Origin: Candidatus Desantisbacteria bacterium CG1_02_38_46
Lineage (GTDB): Bacteria; Desantisbacteria; UBA1551; UBA1559
DNA: 16,760 nt
Assembly (NCBI GenBank): GCA_001871015.1
Contig: MNUO01000032.1
Location: forward strand, 1-16,760
Direction: 5' to 3'
Shown: positions 30-16,760 of the stretch, piece after piece
Position numbering within the stretch: the first letter of the stretch is position 1
How the letters are laid out: every line of letters starts with the position of its first letter
The notes under the pieces: generated by a model
What the model saw: the letters and a program-made list of their open reading frames with translations, nothing else
Databases searched by the model: none
What the model was told of the DNA's origin: nothing
Position numbers and translations under genes: made by a program

Positions 30-1742
30 ATGGATAAGAACTTCTTTCTTCATCCCCAGGATCCTATGCAGAGGAGGTATGAAATCTTGCGTGCATATTT
101 CGTGGAAGAACTCAATGCAGAGGAAGTAGCTAACAGATGCGACTGTTCCATACATACTGTTTATGGTTTACTAAAACAGTACAGGAAAAAGGAAGAGGTG
201 AATTTTTTCCTTCCTCTTAAGCAAGGACCAAAGGGACATCGTCCTTATGTAGAAAATTTGAAAGAGCAAGCTATTAGTTTACGCAAGAGAAATTACTCTA
301 TTTATGAAATTGAAGAAACTTTAAGTCGCAATGTCCAGCGAATTGCTCCAAAGACTATTGATTTTATTCTTAAGGAAGATGGCTTTAGCAAACTTTTCCG
401 GCGAACCAATGCTGAACGATTAGAAGCACTGCAGGCTCGCCGGGAATATCCGGAGGAATCCAGTATCCAAGGATTTGCCACGGTTCCTCAAGTATCTACA
501 ATCTATGGAGGAACATTTCTTTTCATTCCTCTTATTTTAGAACTGGAACTGGATAAGTTACTTCAAGGAATTTCCTTTTATGGCTCCAAGCAAATTCCAT
601 CACTAAATTACCTGCTCTCCTACCTTGGGCTAAAACTATTAGGAAAAGAACGATTATGTCATATTGAAGATTTCAATTTTGATTACGGCATAGGCAGTTT
701 TGCAGGATTAAATGTACTCCCTAAATGTGCAGCTATTACTCAATACTCCTATCGTAACCCAGGTTCTTTAACCGTACAGTTAGTAAAAGGGTTTTTAAAA
801 ATATTGCATGGCCGCAATTTAGTAAAAGGCAATTACATTAATCTGGACTTTCATTCTATACCTCATTATGGAGATGAAAGCCAGCTTCAGAATAACTGGA
901 TACCCACCCGTGGCAAATCTATGAAGAGCATACTCTCATTTTTTGCCCAGGATTTAGAGACTACCTATCTCTGTTATGCAAATGCCGATATAGAAAGAGA
1001 AGAATCCAGCGATGAAGTATTAAAGTTTGTAGATTTTTACAACTCTACTACTGGAAAATTGCCTCACTGCCTGGTATTTGATTCTAAATTGACTACCTAT
1101 CGCAACATGGATACACTTAACCAGAAAGGCATTTTATTCATTACCCTGCGCAACCGAGGAAAATATATCCATAAAAAGATTGCCAAGATTCAAGAATGGG
1201 AAAAGGTTACAATAGATAACCTGAAAAGAAAGTACAAGAATCTGAATGCCTTTAGCGAATTAGTAGATCTAAAAGACTATCAGGGAAAAATAAGGCAAAT
1301 AATTGTTACAGGCACAGGCCGGGAATTACCAATGGTCTTGCTTACCAATGATAAGGAATCTACAATAAAAGAAACTATTACTACTTACACTCATCGCTGG
1401 TTAATAGAACTCAACATCGGTGAAAATGTAGACTTTTTCAATCTGAATGCCTTAAGTTCACCTATAGTAGTCAAGGTAAACTTTGATATCGCCATGACCT
1501 TAATTGCCAATACTTTATACAAACTTCTGGTAAGAGAAATAAGGAAGTTTCAAAAGTCCAGGCCCAAAACTATTTTTCGTAGCTTTATAGAATCTCGCGC
1601 AAAAATTGACATTGAGAAAGACCTTATTACTGTTAAATTTGAAAAGAGATCCTTCAATCCCCTTATCATGGACTGGGTTAGAAAGAGACAGAACATTCTG
1701 GTACCCTGGATGGGCAACCGTAGACTTCGGTTCAAATTTTAG
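30..1742 (+). CDS. IS4-type DDE transposase
   Basis: A 570-residue cut-and-paste transposase. Residues about 15-60 look like a helix-turn-helix DNA-binding region (EEVANRCDCSIHTVYGLLKQ). A catalytic core follows, with candidate acidic residues D273 (INLDFHSIPH), D351 (LVFDSKLT) and E460. E460 lies in YTHRWLIE, which fits the Y-(2)-R-(3)-E signature of the IS4 superfamily; the lysine usually seen six residues later is absent. The frame is open and full length, so the enzyme may be active. A good ribosome binding site (AAAAGGAGG, 15-23) precedes the ATG, and a TATAAT lies at 6-11, with any -35 box outside the window. I could not find the element's terminal inverted repeats: the left end is at or beyond base 1 and the right end lies somewhere between 1743 and about 1780. 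The exact IS family within the superfamily is uncertain. Confidence 0.85.
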   Translation: MDKNFFLHPQDPMQRRYEILRAYFVEELNAEEVANRCDCSIHTVYGLLKQYRKKEEVNFFLPLKQGPKGHRPYVENLKEQAISLRKRNYSIYEIEETLSRNVQRIAPKTIDFILKEDGFSKLFRRTNAERLEALQARREYPEESSIQGFATVPQVSTIYGGTFLFIPLILELELDKLLQGISFYGSKQIPSLNYLLSYLGLKLLGKERLCHIEDFNFDYGIGSFAGLNVLPKCAAITQYSYRNPGSLTVQLVKGFLKILHGRNLVKGNYINLDFHSIPHYGDESQLQNNWIPTRGKSMKSILSFFAQDLETTYLCYANADIEREESSDEVLKFVDFYNSTTGKLPHCLVFDSKLTTYRNMDTLNQKGILFITLRNRGKYIHKKIAKIQEWEKVTIDNLKRKYKNLNAFSELVDLKDYQGKIRQIIVTGTGRELPMVLLTNDKESTIKETITTYTHRWLIELNIGENVDFFNLNALSSPIVVKVNFDIAMTLIANTLYKLLVREIRKFQKSRPKTIFRSFIESRAKIDIEKDLITVKFEKRSFNPLIMDWVRKRQNILVPWMGNRRLRFKF

Positions 1743-3122: not shown

Positions 3123-3773
3123 ATGAAAATAGTTAAGATTGCGCCATCCATATTGTCAGCTGATTTTACTAATCTCGAAAGCGAGATAAAAAAAGTAGAA
3201 AAGGCAGGTGCCGACCTTCTGCATATAGATGTTATGGATGGACATTTTGTTCCAAATATTACTATAGGTCAGCCGGTTGTGAGCGCGATTCGCAAGAAGA
3301 CAAAACTTCCTCTGGATGTGCATTTAATGATTGAGGAACCAGAAATTTATCTGGACGAATTCATTGATGCGGGAGCAGATTGCTTGACGGTTCATCTCGA
3401 GGCCTGCAGGCATCTGCACCGCGCAGTTTCTTTCATAACAAAGAGGAAAGTTAAAGCAGGAGTGGCGCTCAATCCTGCCACGCCATTGGACGGAATTAAA
3501 TATTTGCTTTCAGAATTAAGTCTTGTCCTTTTGATGACCGTAAATCCCGGGTTTGGCGGACAGGATTTGATTCCATCAGCCCTTTCCAAGATTGCAAAGT
3601 TAAATGAGATTATTCAATCCGGAGGGTTTAATATTGATATAGAGGTTGATGGTGGAATAAATAAAGAAACTGCACCAAAGGTAATAAAGGCTGGGGCAAA
3701 TATTCTTGTAGCGGGTTATGCAGTGTATCAGGGTGATGCGCGCAAAGCCATTAAATCATTACGCGGTTTATAG
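3123..3773 (+). CDS. rpe: Ribulose-phosphate 3-epimerase
   Basis: Interconverts D-ribulose 5-phosphate and D-xylulose 5-phosphate in the cytoplasmic pentose phosphate pathway. The TIM-barrel protein of 216 residues shows the family landmarks in order: IAPSILSADF at the N-terminus, HIDVMDGHFVPN (catalytic Asp and metal-binding His), VHLMIEEPE, TVHLEA, MTVNPGFGGQ and IEVDGGIN, with the second catalytic Asp and the phosphate-binding end. I chose the ATG at 3123 because the family begins MKIVKIAPSIL; the open frame extends to a TTG at 3102, but that lies inside the promoter spacer. There is no Shine-Dalgarno sequence. It is the first gene of the run, and its stop codon overlaps the ribosome binding site of rpsP. 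Confidence 0.95.
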   Translation: MKIVKIAPSILSADFTNLESEIKKVEKAGADLLHIDVMDGHFVPNITIGQPVVSAIRKKTKLPLDVHLMIEEPEIYLDEFIDAGADCLTVHLEACRHLHRAVSFITKRKVKAGVALNPATPLDGIKYLLSELSLVLLMTVNPGFGGQDLIPSALSKIAKLNEIIQSGGFNIDIEVDGGINKETAPKVIKAGANILVAGYAVYQGDARKAIKSLRGL

Positions 3774-3781
3774 GAGGTAAG

Positions 3782-4051
3782 TTGTTAAAAATAAGATTAA
3801 GAAGGGTTGGTGGAAAAAATAAACCATGTTACCAGCTCGTCCTTTGTGATTCGAGAGTATCCGTAAGAGGCAAAATTATTGAGAAGATGGGTAATTTTAA
3901 TCCTAAGTTGGATCCTCCACTTATTGGAATCAAAAGGGAGAGAATAGATTATTGGGTGAAGAAAGGTGCTAAATTTTCCGACAGAGTAGAATCTCTACTA
4001 AAAAAAACGTCTGAAACTACTACGGGAGGTTTAAATGAAGTCGCTGGTTGA
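3782..4051 (+). CDS. rpsP: 30S ribosomal protein S16
   Basis: An 89-residue S16 of the small ribosomal subunit. The start of the family is plain (KIRLRRVGGKNKPCYQLVL, then DSRVSVRGKIIEKMGNFNP), and the length is normal. The start codon is TTG at 3782, placed four bases after a very strong TAGGAGG; no ATG is available nearby. Its 3' end overlaps khpA by 17 bases in another frame. It opens the conserved cluster that here runs rpsP-khpA-trmD-rplS. Confidence 0.95.
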   Translation: MLKIRLRRVGGKNKPCYQLVLCDSRVSVRGKIIEKMGNFNPKLDPPLIGIKRERIDYWVKKGAKFSDRVESLLKKTSETTTGGLNEVAG

Positions 4052-4265
4052 ATACATTGTTAAGTGTATTGTAGATAATAAAGAATCTGTTGAGGTTAAA
4101 CAGATTGAAGGTGAAAGGTCAATTGTGTTAGAGGTAAAAGTTGCTCAAGAAGATATGGGAAAGGTTATCGGAAAAGAAGGCAGAACAATAAAGGCAATCC
4201 GTACTGTAATGGGAGTTGCTGCGACAAAGATTGGAAAAAAGGTTATGGTGGAACTGATGCAATGA
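4035..4265 (+). CDS. khpA: KH-domain RNA-binding protein KhpA
   Basis: A 76-residue single type-II KH domain protein. The GxxG loop that contacts RNA is visible as VIGKEGRT (GKEG at residues 46-49). In other bacteria KhpA pairs with KhpB (Jag/EloR) and influences cell elongation and small RNAs. It lies between rpsP and trmD as in many genomes, begins inside rpsP (ribosome binding site GGGAGG within the rpsP frame), and overlaps trmD by four bases (ATGA). The usual next gene, rimM, is missing here. Confidence 0.92.
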   Translation: MKSLVEYIVKCIVDNKESVEVKQIEGERSIVLEVKVAQEDMGKVIGKEGRTIKAIRTVMGVAATKIGKKVMVELMQ

Positions 4266-4972
4266 AGATTGATGTGCTGACGCTTTTTCCTAAGATGTTT
4301 GAGGGTCCGCTAACAGAGAGTATGCTCAAGAGAGCTCAGAAAAAAAAGTTTTTAGATATTAGAGTTCACAATATTCGCGATTTTACTATTGACAGACACA
4401 GAATTACCGATGACTTTTCATATGGCGGCGGTGGAATGGTCCTCAAGCCAGAGCCGATATTCAAGTCGGTGGAATTTCTTAAAAAATGTAGTGGCAGAGT
4501 TCACTCTGCAAAAGTTTTATTAATGACGCCTGATGGTAAAACTTTCAATCAGCAGATGGCAAAGAAACTTGCAAAACGCAAACATCTTATTTTTATTTGC
4601 GGGCATTATGAGGGTGTGGATGAAAGGGTAAGAAAGATAGTGGATGAAGAGATTTCTATTGGAGATTATGTCCTGACCGGCGGAGAACTCCCAGCAATGG
4701 TTGTTATAGATGCAGTTGCAAGGATGATAAAGGGAGTGGTTGGTAAGCAAGACGCTCCCAAGAAAGATTCATTTTACAAGGGGTTATTAGATTATCCTCA
4801 TTATACCCGTCCTCGAGAGTTCAGAGATATGAAGGTACCAGGGGTTCTTCTCTCTGGTAATCATAAGAAAATTCAGGAGTGGCGTGTGACTATTGCGTTA
4901 AAGAGAACGAAACAGCGTCGCCCAGATTTGTTAAAAGGAGATACCAATGCCAGATTTAGTCAGAGAGATTGA
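4262..4972 (+). CDS. trmD: tRNA (guanine37-N1)-methyltransferase
   Basis: Methylates N1 of G37 next to the anticodon of tRNAs reading CNN codons, using S-adenosylmethionine, which prevents +1 frameshifting. This is a SPOUT-fold dimer with a trefoil knot. The 236-residue sequence shows [13 protein letters not shown] at the start, YGGGGMV (residues 54-60), the knot segments [10 protein letters not shown] (114-123) and [12 protein letters not shown] (133-144), and a normal C-terminal domain ([10 protein letters not shown]). Length is typical. It overlaps khpA by four bases and rplS by 26, so the cluster is tightly coupled in translation. Confidence 0.96.
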
Positions 4973-5272: not shown

Positions 5273-5908
5273 GTGGATTTTTCCATTGAAGAAAAATTAT
5301 GGGCTCATGGATATAAACTTATTGCCGGCGTCGATGAAGCAGGACGAGGACCACTGGCAGGTCCTGTAGTAGCAGCAGCGGTAATACTGCAGAATATAAC
5401 GCAGACCTTTAGGTCTGCTGATGTAAAAGACCTAATTTATGAAATAAATGATTCAAAAAAACTGAGTCCTAAAAAACGAGAATTGCTTTTTAAAGAGATC
5501 AGAGAGAAGGCGGTTGGAATAGGGATAGGGACTGCAAACCATAAAGAAATTGATAAAATAAATATTCTTCAGGCAACACTTCTGGCTATGCGCAGGGCAA
5601 TTGAGAACCTGAAGAAAAAACCAGATTATGTCATTGTGGATGGCAAAGAGCTGCCACTTTTTTCTAATTCTCCCATTCCTCAAACTGCAATTATCAGGGG
5701 AGATTCCAAATGTCCTTCAATTGCTGCGGCTTCTATAATTGCCAAGGTTACAAGAGACAGATTAATGAGGGAACTTTCGTCTCAATACCCGCAGTATAAA
5801 TTTGAAAAACATAAGGGATATCCCACCAAAGAGCATATTAGAGTATTGGAAGAATTAGGGCCGTGCAAAATTCATAGATGGTCATTTAGGCCAGTAAAAG
5901 AATTGTAA
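5273..5908 (+). CDS. rnhB: Ribonuclease HII with a repeat-encoded insertion
   Basis: Cuts the RNA strand of RNA-DNA hybrids and single ribonucleotides in DNA. The active site is intact: GVDEAGRGPLAG (Asp21, Glu22), YVIVDG, and GDSKCPSIAAASIIAKVTRD. The start is GTG at 5273, eight bases after rplS, with only a weak ribosome binding site. Two oddities. Between AVIL (36-39) and NDSKKLS (59-65) there are 19 residues, whereas E. coli RNase HII has about nine. The extra stretch (about residues 42-50) is encoded by a palindrome of the dispersed repeat family (5396-5422). The TAA stop codon itself is part of another copy of that repeat (GTAACTCA at 5905). The loop lies away from the catalytic motifs in the linear sequence, so activity is probably kept. 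Confidence 0.94.
   Translation: MDFSIEEKLWAHGYKLIAGVDEAGRGPLAGPVVAAAVILQNITQTFRSADVKDLIYEINDSKKLSPKKRELLFKEIREKAVGIGIGTANHKEIDKINILQATLLAMRRAIENLKKKPDYVIVDGKELPLFSNSPIPQTAIIRGDSKCPSIAAASIIAKVTRDRLMRELSSQYPQYKFEKHKGYPTKEHIRVLEELGPCKIHRWSFRPVKEL
5396..5422 (+). repeat. Palindromic repeat unit inside the rnhB coding region
   Basis: ATAACG leads into GCAGACCT-TT-AGGTCTGC (5401-5418), a perfect 8-bp palindrome, followed by TGA. It matches the intergenic unit at 11171-11193 (GTAACTCA, then CAGACCT-TC-AGGTCTG, then A) at most positions. A third half-site, AGACCTAA (5428-5435), can pair alternatively with TTAGGTCT (5409-5416). It stays in frame and encodes part of NITQTFRSAD. Confidence 0.75.
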
Positions 5909-5987
5909 CTCAAACCTTTTCGAAGAGTCCGATTGTAACTCAAACCTTCAGGTTTGATACAATATCAGGACTAAAGTCCTGAGTTAC
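5905..5987. repeat. Cluster of three GTAACTCA palindromic units
   Basis: Unit 1 (5905-5934) begins GTAACTCAAACC and has a decayed hairpin around TTTTCGAAGAG. Unit 2 (5935-5957) is GTAACTCA with the hairpin CAAACCT-TC-AGGTTTG. Unit 3 (5965-5987) is inverted: TCAGGACT-AA-AGTCCTGA running into GAGTTAC. Units 2 and 3 face each other, so GTAACTCA and TGAGTTAC form an 8-bp outer stem around two hairpins. The cluster fills the gap between rnhB and yraN. Confidence 0.85.
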
Positions 5988-6378: not shown

Positions 6379-6407
6379 CAATATCAGGACTAAAGTCCTG
6401 AGTTACA
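6379..6407. repeat. Inverted GTAACTCA palindromic unit
   Basis: The hairpin TCAGGACT-AA-AGTCCTGA (6384-6401) runs into GAGTTAC. The 29 bases 6379-6407 are identical to 5960-5988. It begins five bases after the yraN stop codon. Confidence 0.85.
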
Positions 6408-11147: not shown

Positions 11148-11198
11148 TCAGGACTAAAGTCCTGAGTTACGTAACTCAGACCTTCAGGTCTGATTTTT
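11148..11198. repeat. Back-to-back GTAACTCA palindromic units, possible terminator
   Basis: An inverted unit (TCAGGACT-AA-AGTCCTGA into GAGTTAC, 11148-11170) abuts a forward unit (GTAACTCA with hairpin CAGACCT-TC-AGGTCTG, 11171-11193). Here the units are tail to tail, opposite to 5935-5987, so GAGTTACGTAACTC makes a third palindrome in the middle. ATTTTTC follows, so the second hairpin could end the methyltransferase transcript. Confidence 0.85.
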
Positions 11199-12525: not shown

Positions 12526-12690
12526 GAACCTTATTGCGACATTTTCTCGACATTTACTTCCGAGCAACAAGGTTCTCATAGAGGTTCTTATTGCGACATT
12601 TTCTCGACATTTACTTCCGAGCAACAAGGTTCTCATAGAGGTTCTTATTGCGACATTTTTTCGACATTTACTTCCGAGCAACAAGGTTCC
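12526..12690. repeat. Three tandem 57-bp repeats
   Basis: TTATTGCGAC begins at 12531, 12588 and 12645, an exact 57-bp period. The copies are nearly identical (the third has TTTTTTCG where the others have TTTTCTCG) and end CGAGCAACAAGGTTC. Each unit pairs TTATTGC with GCAACAA and CTCG with CGAG; in the first copy the outer stem extends to GAACCTTATTGC with GCAACAAGGTTC. Since 57 is a multiple of three, open frames run through on both strands by accident. A diverged fourth copy lies at 14009-14070. Confidence 0.92.
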
Positions 12691-12713
12691 TTTATTGTTT
12701 AGGAGAGTTTTAA

Positions 12714-13978: not shown

Positions 13979-14006
13979 AAAAAGCCGCCCCAAAGGCGGT
14001 TTTTTT
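13979..14006 (+). terminator. Rho-independent terminator
   Basis: CCGCC/GGCGG with loop CCAAA, extended by A-U pairs from AAAAAG, followed by seven Ts. It closes the accessory cassette. Between the pseudogene (13911) and this hairpin I see nothing else. Confidence 0.88.
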
Positions 14007-14008
14007 AT

Positions 14009-14070
14009 ATTGCGACTATCCCACGACGTTTATTTTCGAACAACAAGGTTCTGACGAAGTCAGGTTCTTA
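14009..14070. repeat. Diverged fourth copy of the 57-bp repeat
   Basis: TATTGCGAC, then CGACGTTTATTTTCGAACAA, then CAAGGTTCT and CAGGTTCTTA follow the order of the tandem units at 12526-12690. Where those have CTC-ATA-GAG, this copy has CTGAC-GAA-GTCAG: a different sequence, but still a hairpin at the same place. Confidence 0.75.
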
Positions 14071-14133: not shown

Positions 14134-14192
14134 TTGTAGTGGTCGAGCTTGCTCGACTGAATAAATTTGCAGAGTAAACTCTGCCACTACAA
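14134..14192. repeat. Two-hairpin inverted element in the comM leader
   Basis: An outer 9-bp inverted repeat TTGTAGTGG/CCACTACAA (14134-14142, 14184-14192) encloses two hairpins: TCGAGC-TT-GCTCGA (14143-14156) and GCAGAGT-AA-ACTCTGC (14169-14184). The second shares one base with the outer arm. The architecture equals that of 5935-5987, but the sequence is unrelated. It lies between promoter and ribosome binding site, so it is transcribed. Confidence 0.85.
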
Positions 14193-16533: not shown

Positions 16534-16760
16534 GTGTGCCGAGAAAGTGTATTAGTTCTTGTTGGTGCAAGTCCGACTTAGGTAAAGGTTAGCCACCAGC
16601 CTAACACTTAATCTCACACTTTATTTGGTAACAAATAAAGTGGTGCGGGAAGCGGGAAATATCGAGCTATAACGCAAGTGAAGGAATTGAGCCCCGAAAT
16701 AACCAGCGTGTCAGTGGTCGATACTCTTCATTAAGGAGCAGACAATAGTCTCACAACCGA
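16534..16760 (+). mobile_element. Group II intron, 5' part
   Basis: The intron begins GTGTGCC, the standard 5' end of group II introns (GUGYG). Domain I landmarks follow: GGTGCAAGTCC (16564-16574), a perfect 10-bp hairpin ACTTTATTTG/CAAATAAAGT capped by the GNRA-type tetraloop GTAA (16618-16641), ACGCAAGTGAAGG, GAGCCCCGAAAT, and a stem-loop TCTTCATTAAGGAG (16725-16738) that looks like the EBS1 arm. TCATT there (16728-16732) can pair with AATGA (16529-16533), the last five exon bases. Such introns are ribozymes, usually with a reverse transcriptase/maturase in domain IV; that ORF and the 3' end lie outside the window. I cannot name the subclass safely. Confidence 0.85.

Follow-up and report, generated by a model that had tools for sequence, protein, structure and literature searches.

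RNase HII of Candidatus Desantisbacteria bacterium CG1_02_38_46 has a loop that is longer than in its homologues and that is encoded in part by a palindrome, which raises the question of whether a repeat entered the gene and, if so, by what route. An initial annotation of this DNA had favored insertion over chance and had likened the palindrome to the Rickettsia palindromic elements. The question is addressed here in the window (the whole 16,760-nucleotide stretch of DNA that was analyzed), in the assembly to which the window belongs (G000, hereafter the focal genome; 1.73 Mb in 133 contigs, 88% complete) and in Candidatus Desantisbacteria CG1_02_49_89 (G001, hereafter the sister genome), which was the only genome of the same order to be compared.

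A palindrome in the expanded loop of RNase HII

The rnhB gene (positions 5273–5908, forward strand) encodes a protein that matches Pfam accession PF01351 and the NCBIfam model for RNase HII. Positions 5396–5418 of the same strand hold the palindrome ATAACGCAGACCTTTAGGTCTGC, in which ATAAC is followed by GCAGACCT, TT and AGGTCTGC to give a hairpin with a perfect 8-bp stem and a TT loop, and which reads I-T-Q-T-F-R-S-A (ITQTFRSA) in the frame of the gene. The palindrome inside rnhB is thus confirmed as real and in frame; it lies where the initial annotation had marked a 26-base stretch (5396–5422), though the repeat unit itself is 23 nt long. A partial unit of the same class, the head GTAACTCAAACCTT at 5905–5918 (forward strand; read directly from the sequence), provides in its TAA the stop codon of rnhB.

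The extra length is equally clear. The loop (5390–5431, forward strand; residues about 40–53) separates the AGP and DSK motifs by 28 residues, compared with 16–22 (mode 18) in 21 homologues, a net excess of about 10 residues (30 nt) for a repeat unit of 23 nt. A phmmer alignment with the Thermotoga maritima RNase HII (3o3g/2etj) places a gap of 12 residues precisely over the unit. The loop, which presumably lies on the protein surface, was placed by alignment, an AlphaFold2 model built without an alignment having given an unusable pLDDT of 43. A search for RnhB relatives in viral contigs, meant to deepen the alignment, found none.

The initial annotation had asked whether relatives share the loop length but not the palindrome, and whether the palindrome is confined to this gene. 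Homologous loops are shorter, and the nearest genome compared, which is related at the level of order, has its own insert in that loop: the same AGP–DSK interval spans 39 residues in the sister RnhB and is encoded by 7-mers plus a palindrome, CCCACTGCTTTTTCAGGAAAGCAAAAAGTGGG. This sister palindrome belongs to no repeat family in that genome at ≤3 mismatches, its two matches representing one locus at overlapping contig ends. The palindrome of the focal rnhB is abundant elsewhere in its own genome. An exact 22-mer of the unit recurs in leuC (C3:33267), the two copies being identical over 22 nt.

A family of hairpin-forming repeats

Stretches read from the focal genome contain 446 GTAR-headed hairpins, compared with 41 in shuffled sequence, and two classes can be distinguished among them. 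Class I, to which the rnhB unit belongs, has the form GTAACTCA-stem-TTY-stem-TGA with stems GACC, AACC, GGACT, GGGCT and others. Class II consists of GTAGTGG followed by a stem (CAGAG, TCGAG, CAGACC and others). At ≤3 mismatches the intergenic class I form occurs at 87 places in the 1.73 Mb of the focal genome and its reversed control at none, which is far above chance. The class I family occupies 44 places in the sister genome, and its pattern was found in none of the 57 other genomes among the 59 searched. Exact whole-genome matches to the class I form closed by a T.A pair number 254 in the focal and 129 in the sister genome. The class II sequence GTAGTGGCAGAGTTTACTCTGC occurs, at ≤3 mismatches, at 147 places in the focal genome and 16 in the sister genome, where the usual class II stem is GAGCTTGCTC.

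Hairpin pairing is conserved across the class I family. Among 158 copies of TAACTCANNNCTTYAGNNNTGA, matched with the three inner pairs unconstrained and no palindrome filter, these pairs are all Watson-Crick in 150, include a G-U pair in 4 and are broken in 4. Covariation was also seen in a set of 14 class I sequences, which, having been chosen as hairpins, are biased towards pairing.

Within the window, the intergenic copy at 11171–11193 (forward strand; GACC stem) is the one that the initial annotation had compared with the rnhB unit. The two do belong to one family, but their flanks are not identical: the outermost stem pair is G.C in rnhB and T.A at 11171–11193, and the supposedly shared TGA is shifted by one base (CTGC-TGA versus CTGA). 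That intergenic copy stands back to back with a GGACT-stem copy at 11148–11170 (reverse strand). Between rnhB and the next gene, an AACC-stem copy at 5935–5957 (forward strand) forms an inverted pair with a GGACT-stem copy at 5965–5987 (reverse strand), and a further intergenic GGACT-stem copy lies at 6384–6406 (reverse strand). Class II is represented by an intergenic unit at 14169–14190 (reverse strand) with the sequence GTAGTGGCAGAGTTTACTCTGC and by GTAGTGGCAGAGTTCACTCTGC at 4488–4509 (forward strand), which encodes SGRVHSA in frame in a second host gene, trmD (tRNA m1G methyltransferase; 4262–4972, forward strand). A search of the window against Rfam gave no match to the palindromes.

The class II word is also present in metagenome-assembled genomes of Elusimicrobia, WOR-3/Stahlbacteria, Planctomycetes/Brocadiales, Nitrospinae and others. 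It lies in long open reading frames in 8 of 89 copies in other phyla versus 20 of 68 in the focal genome (Fisher p 0.0014), and the long reading frames in other phyla look like read-through of intergenic repeats. One 22-nt word, GTAGTGGCAGAGYTTRCTCTGC, is shared exactly by metagenome-assembled genomes of many unrelated phyla, a pattern that points either to a REP/RAYT system that has spread horizontally or to a word that is strongly constrained.

In-frame copies in other genes and in the sister genome

The search for the unit in other coding regions that the initial annotation had proposed revealed in-frame copies of this and related units in more than 12 further genes. Palindromes of the two classes lie in frame in trmD, thrC, asd, thiL (at several sites), tsaB, trpE, trpG, dprA, leuC, topA and hypD, and additional hosts include an NADH-quinone/Mrp-type antiporter subunit (nuoN-like), mfd, a radical-SAM/DUF2344 protein, an alpha/beta hydrolase, a metallophosphatase-type protein and others. 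Host families were named by Pfam and their context was judged from stretches chosen around the repeats, in which coding-like sequence continues on both sides of the in-frame units. Most intragenic units sit where solved homologues lack residues: alignments to PDB structures open gaps at the units in RnhB, ThrC, TrpE, ThiL, LeuC and Asd, and a smaller gap of 4 residues in TrmD. A further hairpin, GTAGCGCCCCGATTTTATCGGGGC, is in frame in a HypF-like gene (hypF, L021:2-1207).

All intragenic units found are stop-free and keep the frame, in a search that required open frames, and this argues that they are translated rather than spliced out or bypassed. Forward class II copies are read in frame 2 as S-G-R-x-x-S-A (SGRVYSA-type) in 13 host genes, whereas the other open forward frame (VVAEFTL) is used in 1–2 genes (binomial p 0.002–0.007). 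Intragenic class I copies are read in frame 0 as V-T-Q-x-F; no bias is claimed for this class because frame 0 is the only open forward frame for most copies.

Two genes show a different pattern. pstB (L127:3-503) and a UPF0164 gene (L081:653-1630) hold the units GTAACTCAAGCCTTCAGGCTTGA and GTAGTGGCAGACCTCGGTCTGC within conserved coding sequence, and protein length is unchanged. Since pstB is of equal length in the focal and sister genomes, these units suggest replacement and not simple insertion.

Orthologues from the sister genome were aligned for 14 host genes (hypD had no match, and the alpha/beta hydrolase and mfd were left out of the queries), and the state of each site was judged by eye from pairwise alignments. 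Of the 17 sites compared, about 12 also carry an insert in the sister genome, and these inserts consist mostly of lineage-specific repeats. Heptamer arrays occupy trmD (CGTCGTR), leuC (AAATTGT), the DUF2344 gene (CAAATTG), thiL (TGCATCG; GTCGTAC) and trpG, 8-mers fill the dprA loop, and other palindromes are found in asd and thiL (GGGACTGTCCC) and in tsaB (CCCCCC...GGGGGG). In thrC, a class II unit stands at the same codons in both genomes with a different stem in each (TTTA in the focal and CTTG in the sister genome). The pairwise alignments show no repeat-like insert in the sister genome at trpE, topA, the nuoN-like gene or the second DUF2344 site. With inserts at most of the compared sites and other repeats in most of them, these loops are permissive, and their repeated occupation involves either different repeats or a single repeat homogenized within each genome. 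Two genomes of one order that use the same loops for different repeats thus amount to a natural test of where proteins tolerate added residues and of whether mobile DNA regularly contributes to loop diversity. The sister orthologues L275, L277, L289 and L293, among others, are housekeeping proteins with loops filled by heptanucleotide arrays in frame.

Taken together, the genome-wide family with conserved hairpins, the homologous loops that are shorter by about 10 residues and the in-frame units in more than 12 other conserved genes lead us to conclude that the extra RnhB loop very probably arose by in-frame insertion of a REP-type palindrome, which is one of a population of repeats that have inserted into many genes in this lineage. 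The preference for insertion over chance in the initial annotation is thereby supported by the genome count, the loop lengths of homologues and the same behavior in other genes.

The closing pair of the stem adds a further dimension. The G.C-closed form of class I (GTAACGCA...TGC) has 4 copies in the focal genome, in rnhB, leuC, the alpha/beta hydrolase and the DUF2344 gene, so that 4 of 4 are intragenic, all in frame 0. Among 158 distinct T.A-closed copies that were read, 6 lie in open reading frames with 30 codons on each side, and pstB is the only recognizable gene among them. This split has a Fisher p of 1.8e-7, or 7.6e-6 when all six open-reading-frame copies are counted. Three G.C-closed copies in the sister genome comprise one that is intragenic near a C-terminus (C147, VTQDFSPA), one that is intergenic and one that is ambiguous. 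The exact G.C-closed form was found in no species of 84,980 searched, a set that may leave out the focal genome itself. Avoidance of stop codons was rejected as the reason for the G.C-closed form, both forms being open in the frame used. A tentative reading is that genes may hold their own G.C-closed sub-population apart from the roughly 250 intergenic T.A-closed copies, and that a fixed set of loops may serve as recurrent docking sites for successive unrelated repeats. If this were true, protein loops would evolve by turnover of mobile DNA. The G.C/T.A split is in any case a specific, testable puzzle for REP/RAYT biology.

Proposed routes of spread and relation to known repeats

The palindrome is presumably selfish and mobile, moving by transposition. 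A RAYT-type single-strand transposase would copy the units, or would have done so in the past, with the hairpin and its GTAA/GTAG foot as its substrate. Frameshifting inserts and inserts that introduce a stop codon would be lost, and those that persist would be a multiple of three bases, in a frame with a short polar peptide and in a loop that tolerates a change of length. The protein would carry the peptide as neutral ballast, and permissive loops may be refilled by whichever repeat is active in each lineage.

A candidate mobilizer is seen in the sister genome, which has ten Y1_Tnp genes. Two of these, each encoding 163 residues (C23:1743-2231 and 3769-4257), directly abut class I arrays: GTAACTCAGACCTTCAGGTCTGA-type units form arrays on one side, and single units stand on the opposite side, a layout termed a REPtron. 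The focal genome yielded three Y1_Tnp matches: one at C60 with a stop, one at C109 and a fragment at the end of contig C53. The C109 gene encodes 347 residues with a DnaA-type C-terminus and scores 79.7 bits against a cut-off of 80 for the REP-associated transposase model. No class I unit lies close to the C60 or C109 gene; a class II unit is found at C53:446, near the truncated Y1_Tnp gene C53:4-99. None of the Y1_Tnp genes found in this 88%-complete genome has class I units directly beside it. TnpA_REP binds and cuts REPs with a GTAG foot in vitro (PMC8266576), and this published cleavage, together with the C23 layout, makes mobilization by a RAYT the likely route of spread. The GTAA foot (ATAA in the rnhB copy) in place of the canonical GTAG speaks against it, as does the lack of a gene with this layout among those found in the focal genome.

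The same insertion could instead have come about by recombination, gene conversion or replication slippage between repeats with no transposase involved, a route that we regard as possible but doubtful. The thrC unit, with the same codon position in both genomes and the stem of its own genome in each, is what concerted evolution would be expected to produce. Length-neutral replacement in pstB and the UPF0164 gene, tandem repeat arrays with periods of 24, 30 or 57 nt and the lack of a clear REP-flanked RAYT among the Y1_Tnp genes found in the focal genome point the same way. Against this stand the class I units that directly abut Y1_Tnp genes in the sister genome and the isolated single units with unrelated flanks in many genes, which require movement without flanking homology. 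Concerted evolution in thrC and the length-neutral units do suggest that recombination or replacement also contributes alongside transposition. One tandem array in the window (12530–12700) lies downstream of an AAA_14/DUF4143 ATPase gene and has three 57-nt units (CTTATTGCGACATTTTCTCGACATTT...); a diverged single copy of the unit is found at 14006–14062.

It is improbable that intragenic copies are kept because they are useful, as mRNA hairpins that tune translation or as functional peptides. The perfection of the intragenic palindromes (as in the identical rnhB and leuC copies), the biased use of frames and the confinement of the G.C-closed form to genes in the focal genome would fit such a role, but the host proteins are unrelated enzymes and no particular peptide or hairpin is conserved, the sister genome filling the same loops with unrelated sequence and lacking any repeat-like insert in topA, trpE and the nuoN-like gene. 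Repeats misjoined during metagenome assembly are a highly unlikely source: the assembly is fragmented into 133 contigs and several of them end in these repeats (C4, C116), yet misjoins would not keep the frame or match homologous gaps in more than 12 genes, and the separately assembled sister genome shows the same habit. A chance resemblance of native RnhB coding sequence to the repeat was rejected as the least credible explanation, since, even though units do coincide with sequence of ordinary length in pstB and UPF0164, our own arithmetic gives about 0.01 expected matches to a 22-mer at ≤3 mismatches in 1.73 Mb against 87 observed (0 in the control) and the loop has 28 residues against 16–22.

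Several known systems resemble these repeats. GTAG REPs, of which intragenic copies have already been described (Di Nocera et al., 2013; PMC3733652), share with the present repeats short perfect palindromes, a conserved foot, TY loops, stem subfamilies with complementary changes, inverted pairs, RAYT association and the presence of some copies in open reading frames. Class I is a short palindrome (8-bp stem, 2-nt loop; 20–50 nt with the foot in GTAG REPs) in high copy number (254 copies), and it is associated with RAYT-type genes at C23 in the sister genome; no such association was seen in the focal genome. Its end, though, has the consensus GTAA (ATAA in rnhB, GTAGCTCA in a minority) and not GTAG, so we claim a likeness in action to GTAG REPs and not strict membership. 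Given its position beside Y1 (RAYT-type) transposase genes in the sister genome, the class of the rnhB unit probably works like a RAYT-mobilized REP. Class II combines a GTAG foot (GTAGTGG-stem), a palindrome and high copy number (147 places in the focal genome).

The present repeats differ from GTAG REPs in the GTAA(C) foot of class I, in their new stems and host lineage, in the confinement of the G.C-closed form to genes in the focal genome and in the mostly non-REP repeats of the sister loops. GTAG REPs hit mainly DNA repair genes, whereas the hosts here are amino-acid, tRNA-modification and cofactor genes. For shared sites there is one precedent: two Xanthomonas species carry different REPs at nearly the same position in recB (PMC3733652). 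REPIN/RAYT systems (TnpA_REP; PMC3116915, PMC8266576) likewise comprise non-autonomous hairpins beside Y1 HUH transposase genes with frequent inverted pairs, but classical REPs are mostly intergenic, whereas class II is often intragenic here and a clear REP-flanked RAYT is missing among those found in the focal genome.

Rickettsia palindromic elements (Ogata 2000, 2002; summarized in PMC10969869) resemble these units: they too are palindromic repeats that lie in frame within protein genes unrelated to one another and favor one peptide reading. They are, however, described as about 150 bp long (PMC10969869) and carry CGTC at one end (PMC3733652), compared with 22–23 nt and a GTAA/GTAG foot here. 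The analogy drawn by the initial annotation therefore holds for behavior, and membership was rejected on end motif and length: the rnhB unit is a GTAR-headed REP-type element of 23 nt with an ATAA/GTAA foot and no CGTC tag. Heptanucleotide tandem repeats within genes of Geobacter metallireducens (PMC2700814) are matched by the sister inserts, which are largely 7-mer arrays (TCGTGCG, CAAATTG); such tandem 7-mers lack palindromic structure and differ from the insert in the rnhB gene of the window.

We found no paper on intragenic palindromes of this kind in Desantisbacteria. What is new is the host lineage, a GTAA-footed class with a G.C/T.A split, the scale on which core genes are affected and the finding that a sister lineage has other repeat families in the same loops. 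Insertion of palindromes in frame is familiar above all from Rickettsia; here it is seen at large scale in core metabolic and tRNA-modification genes of an uncultured lineage with no known intracellular link.

Two further features of the window were noted. A 570-residue open reading frame at 30–1742 (forward strand) is transposase-like by eye and has no Pfam match. Group II intron domains D1-D4-6 were detected by Rfam (67.7 bits) at 16568–16760 (forward strand), where the match ends at the contig edge.
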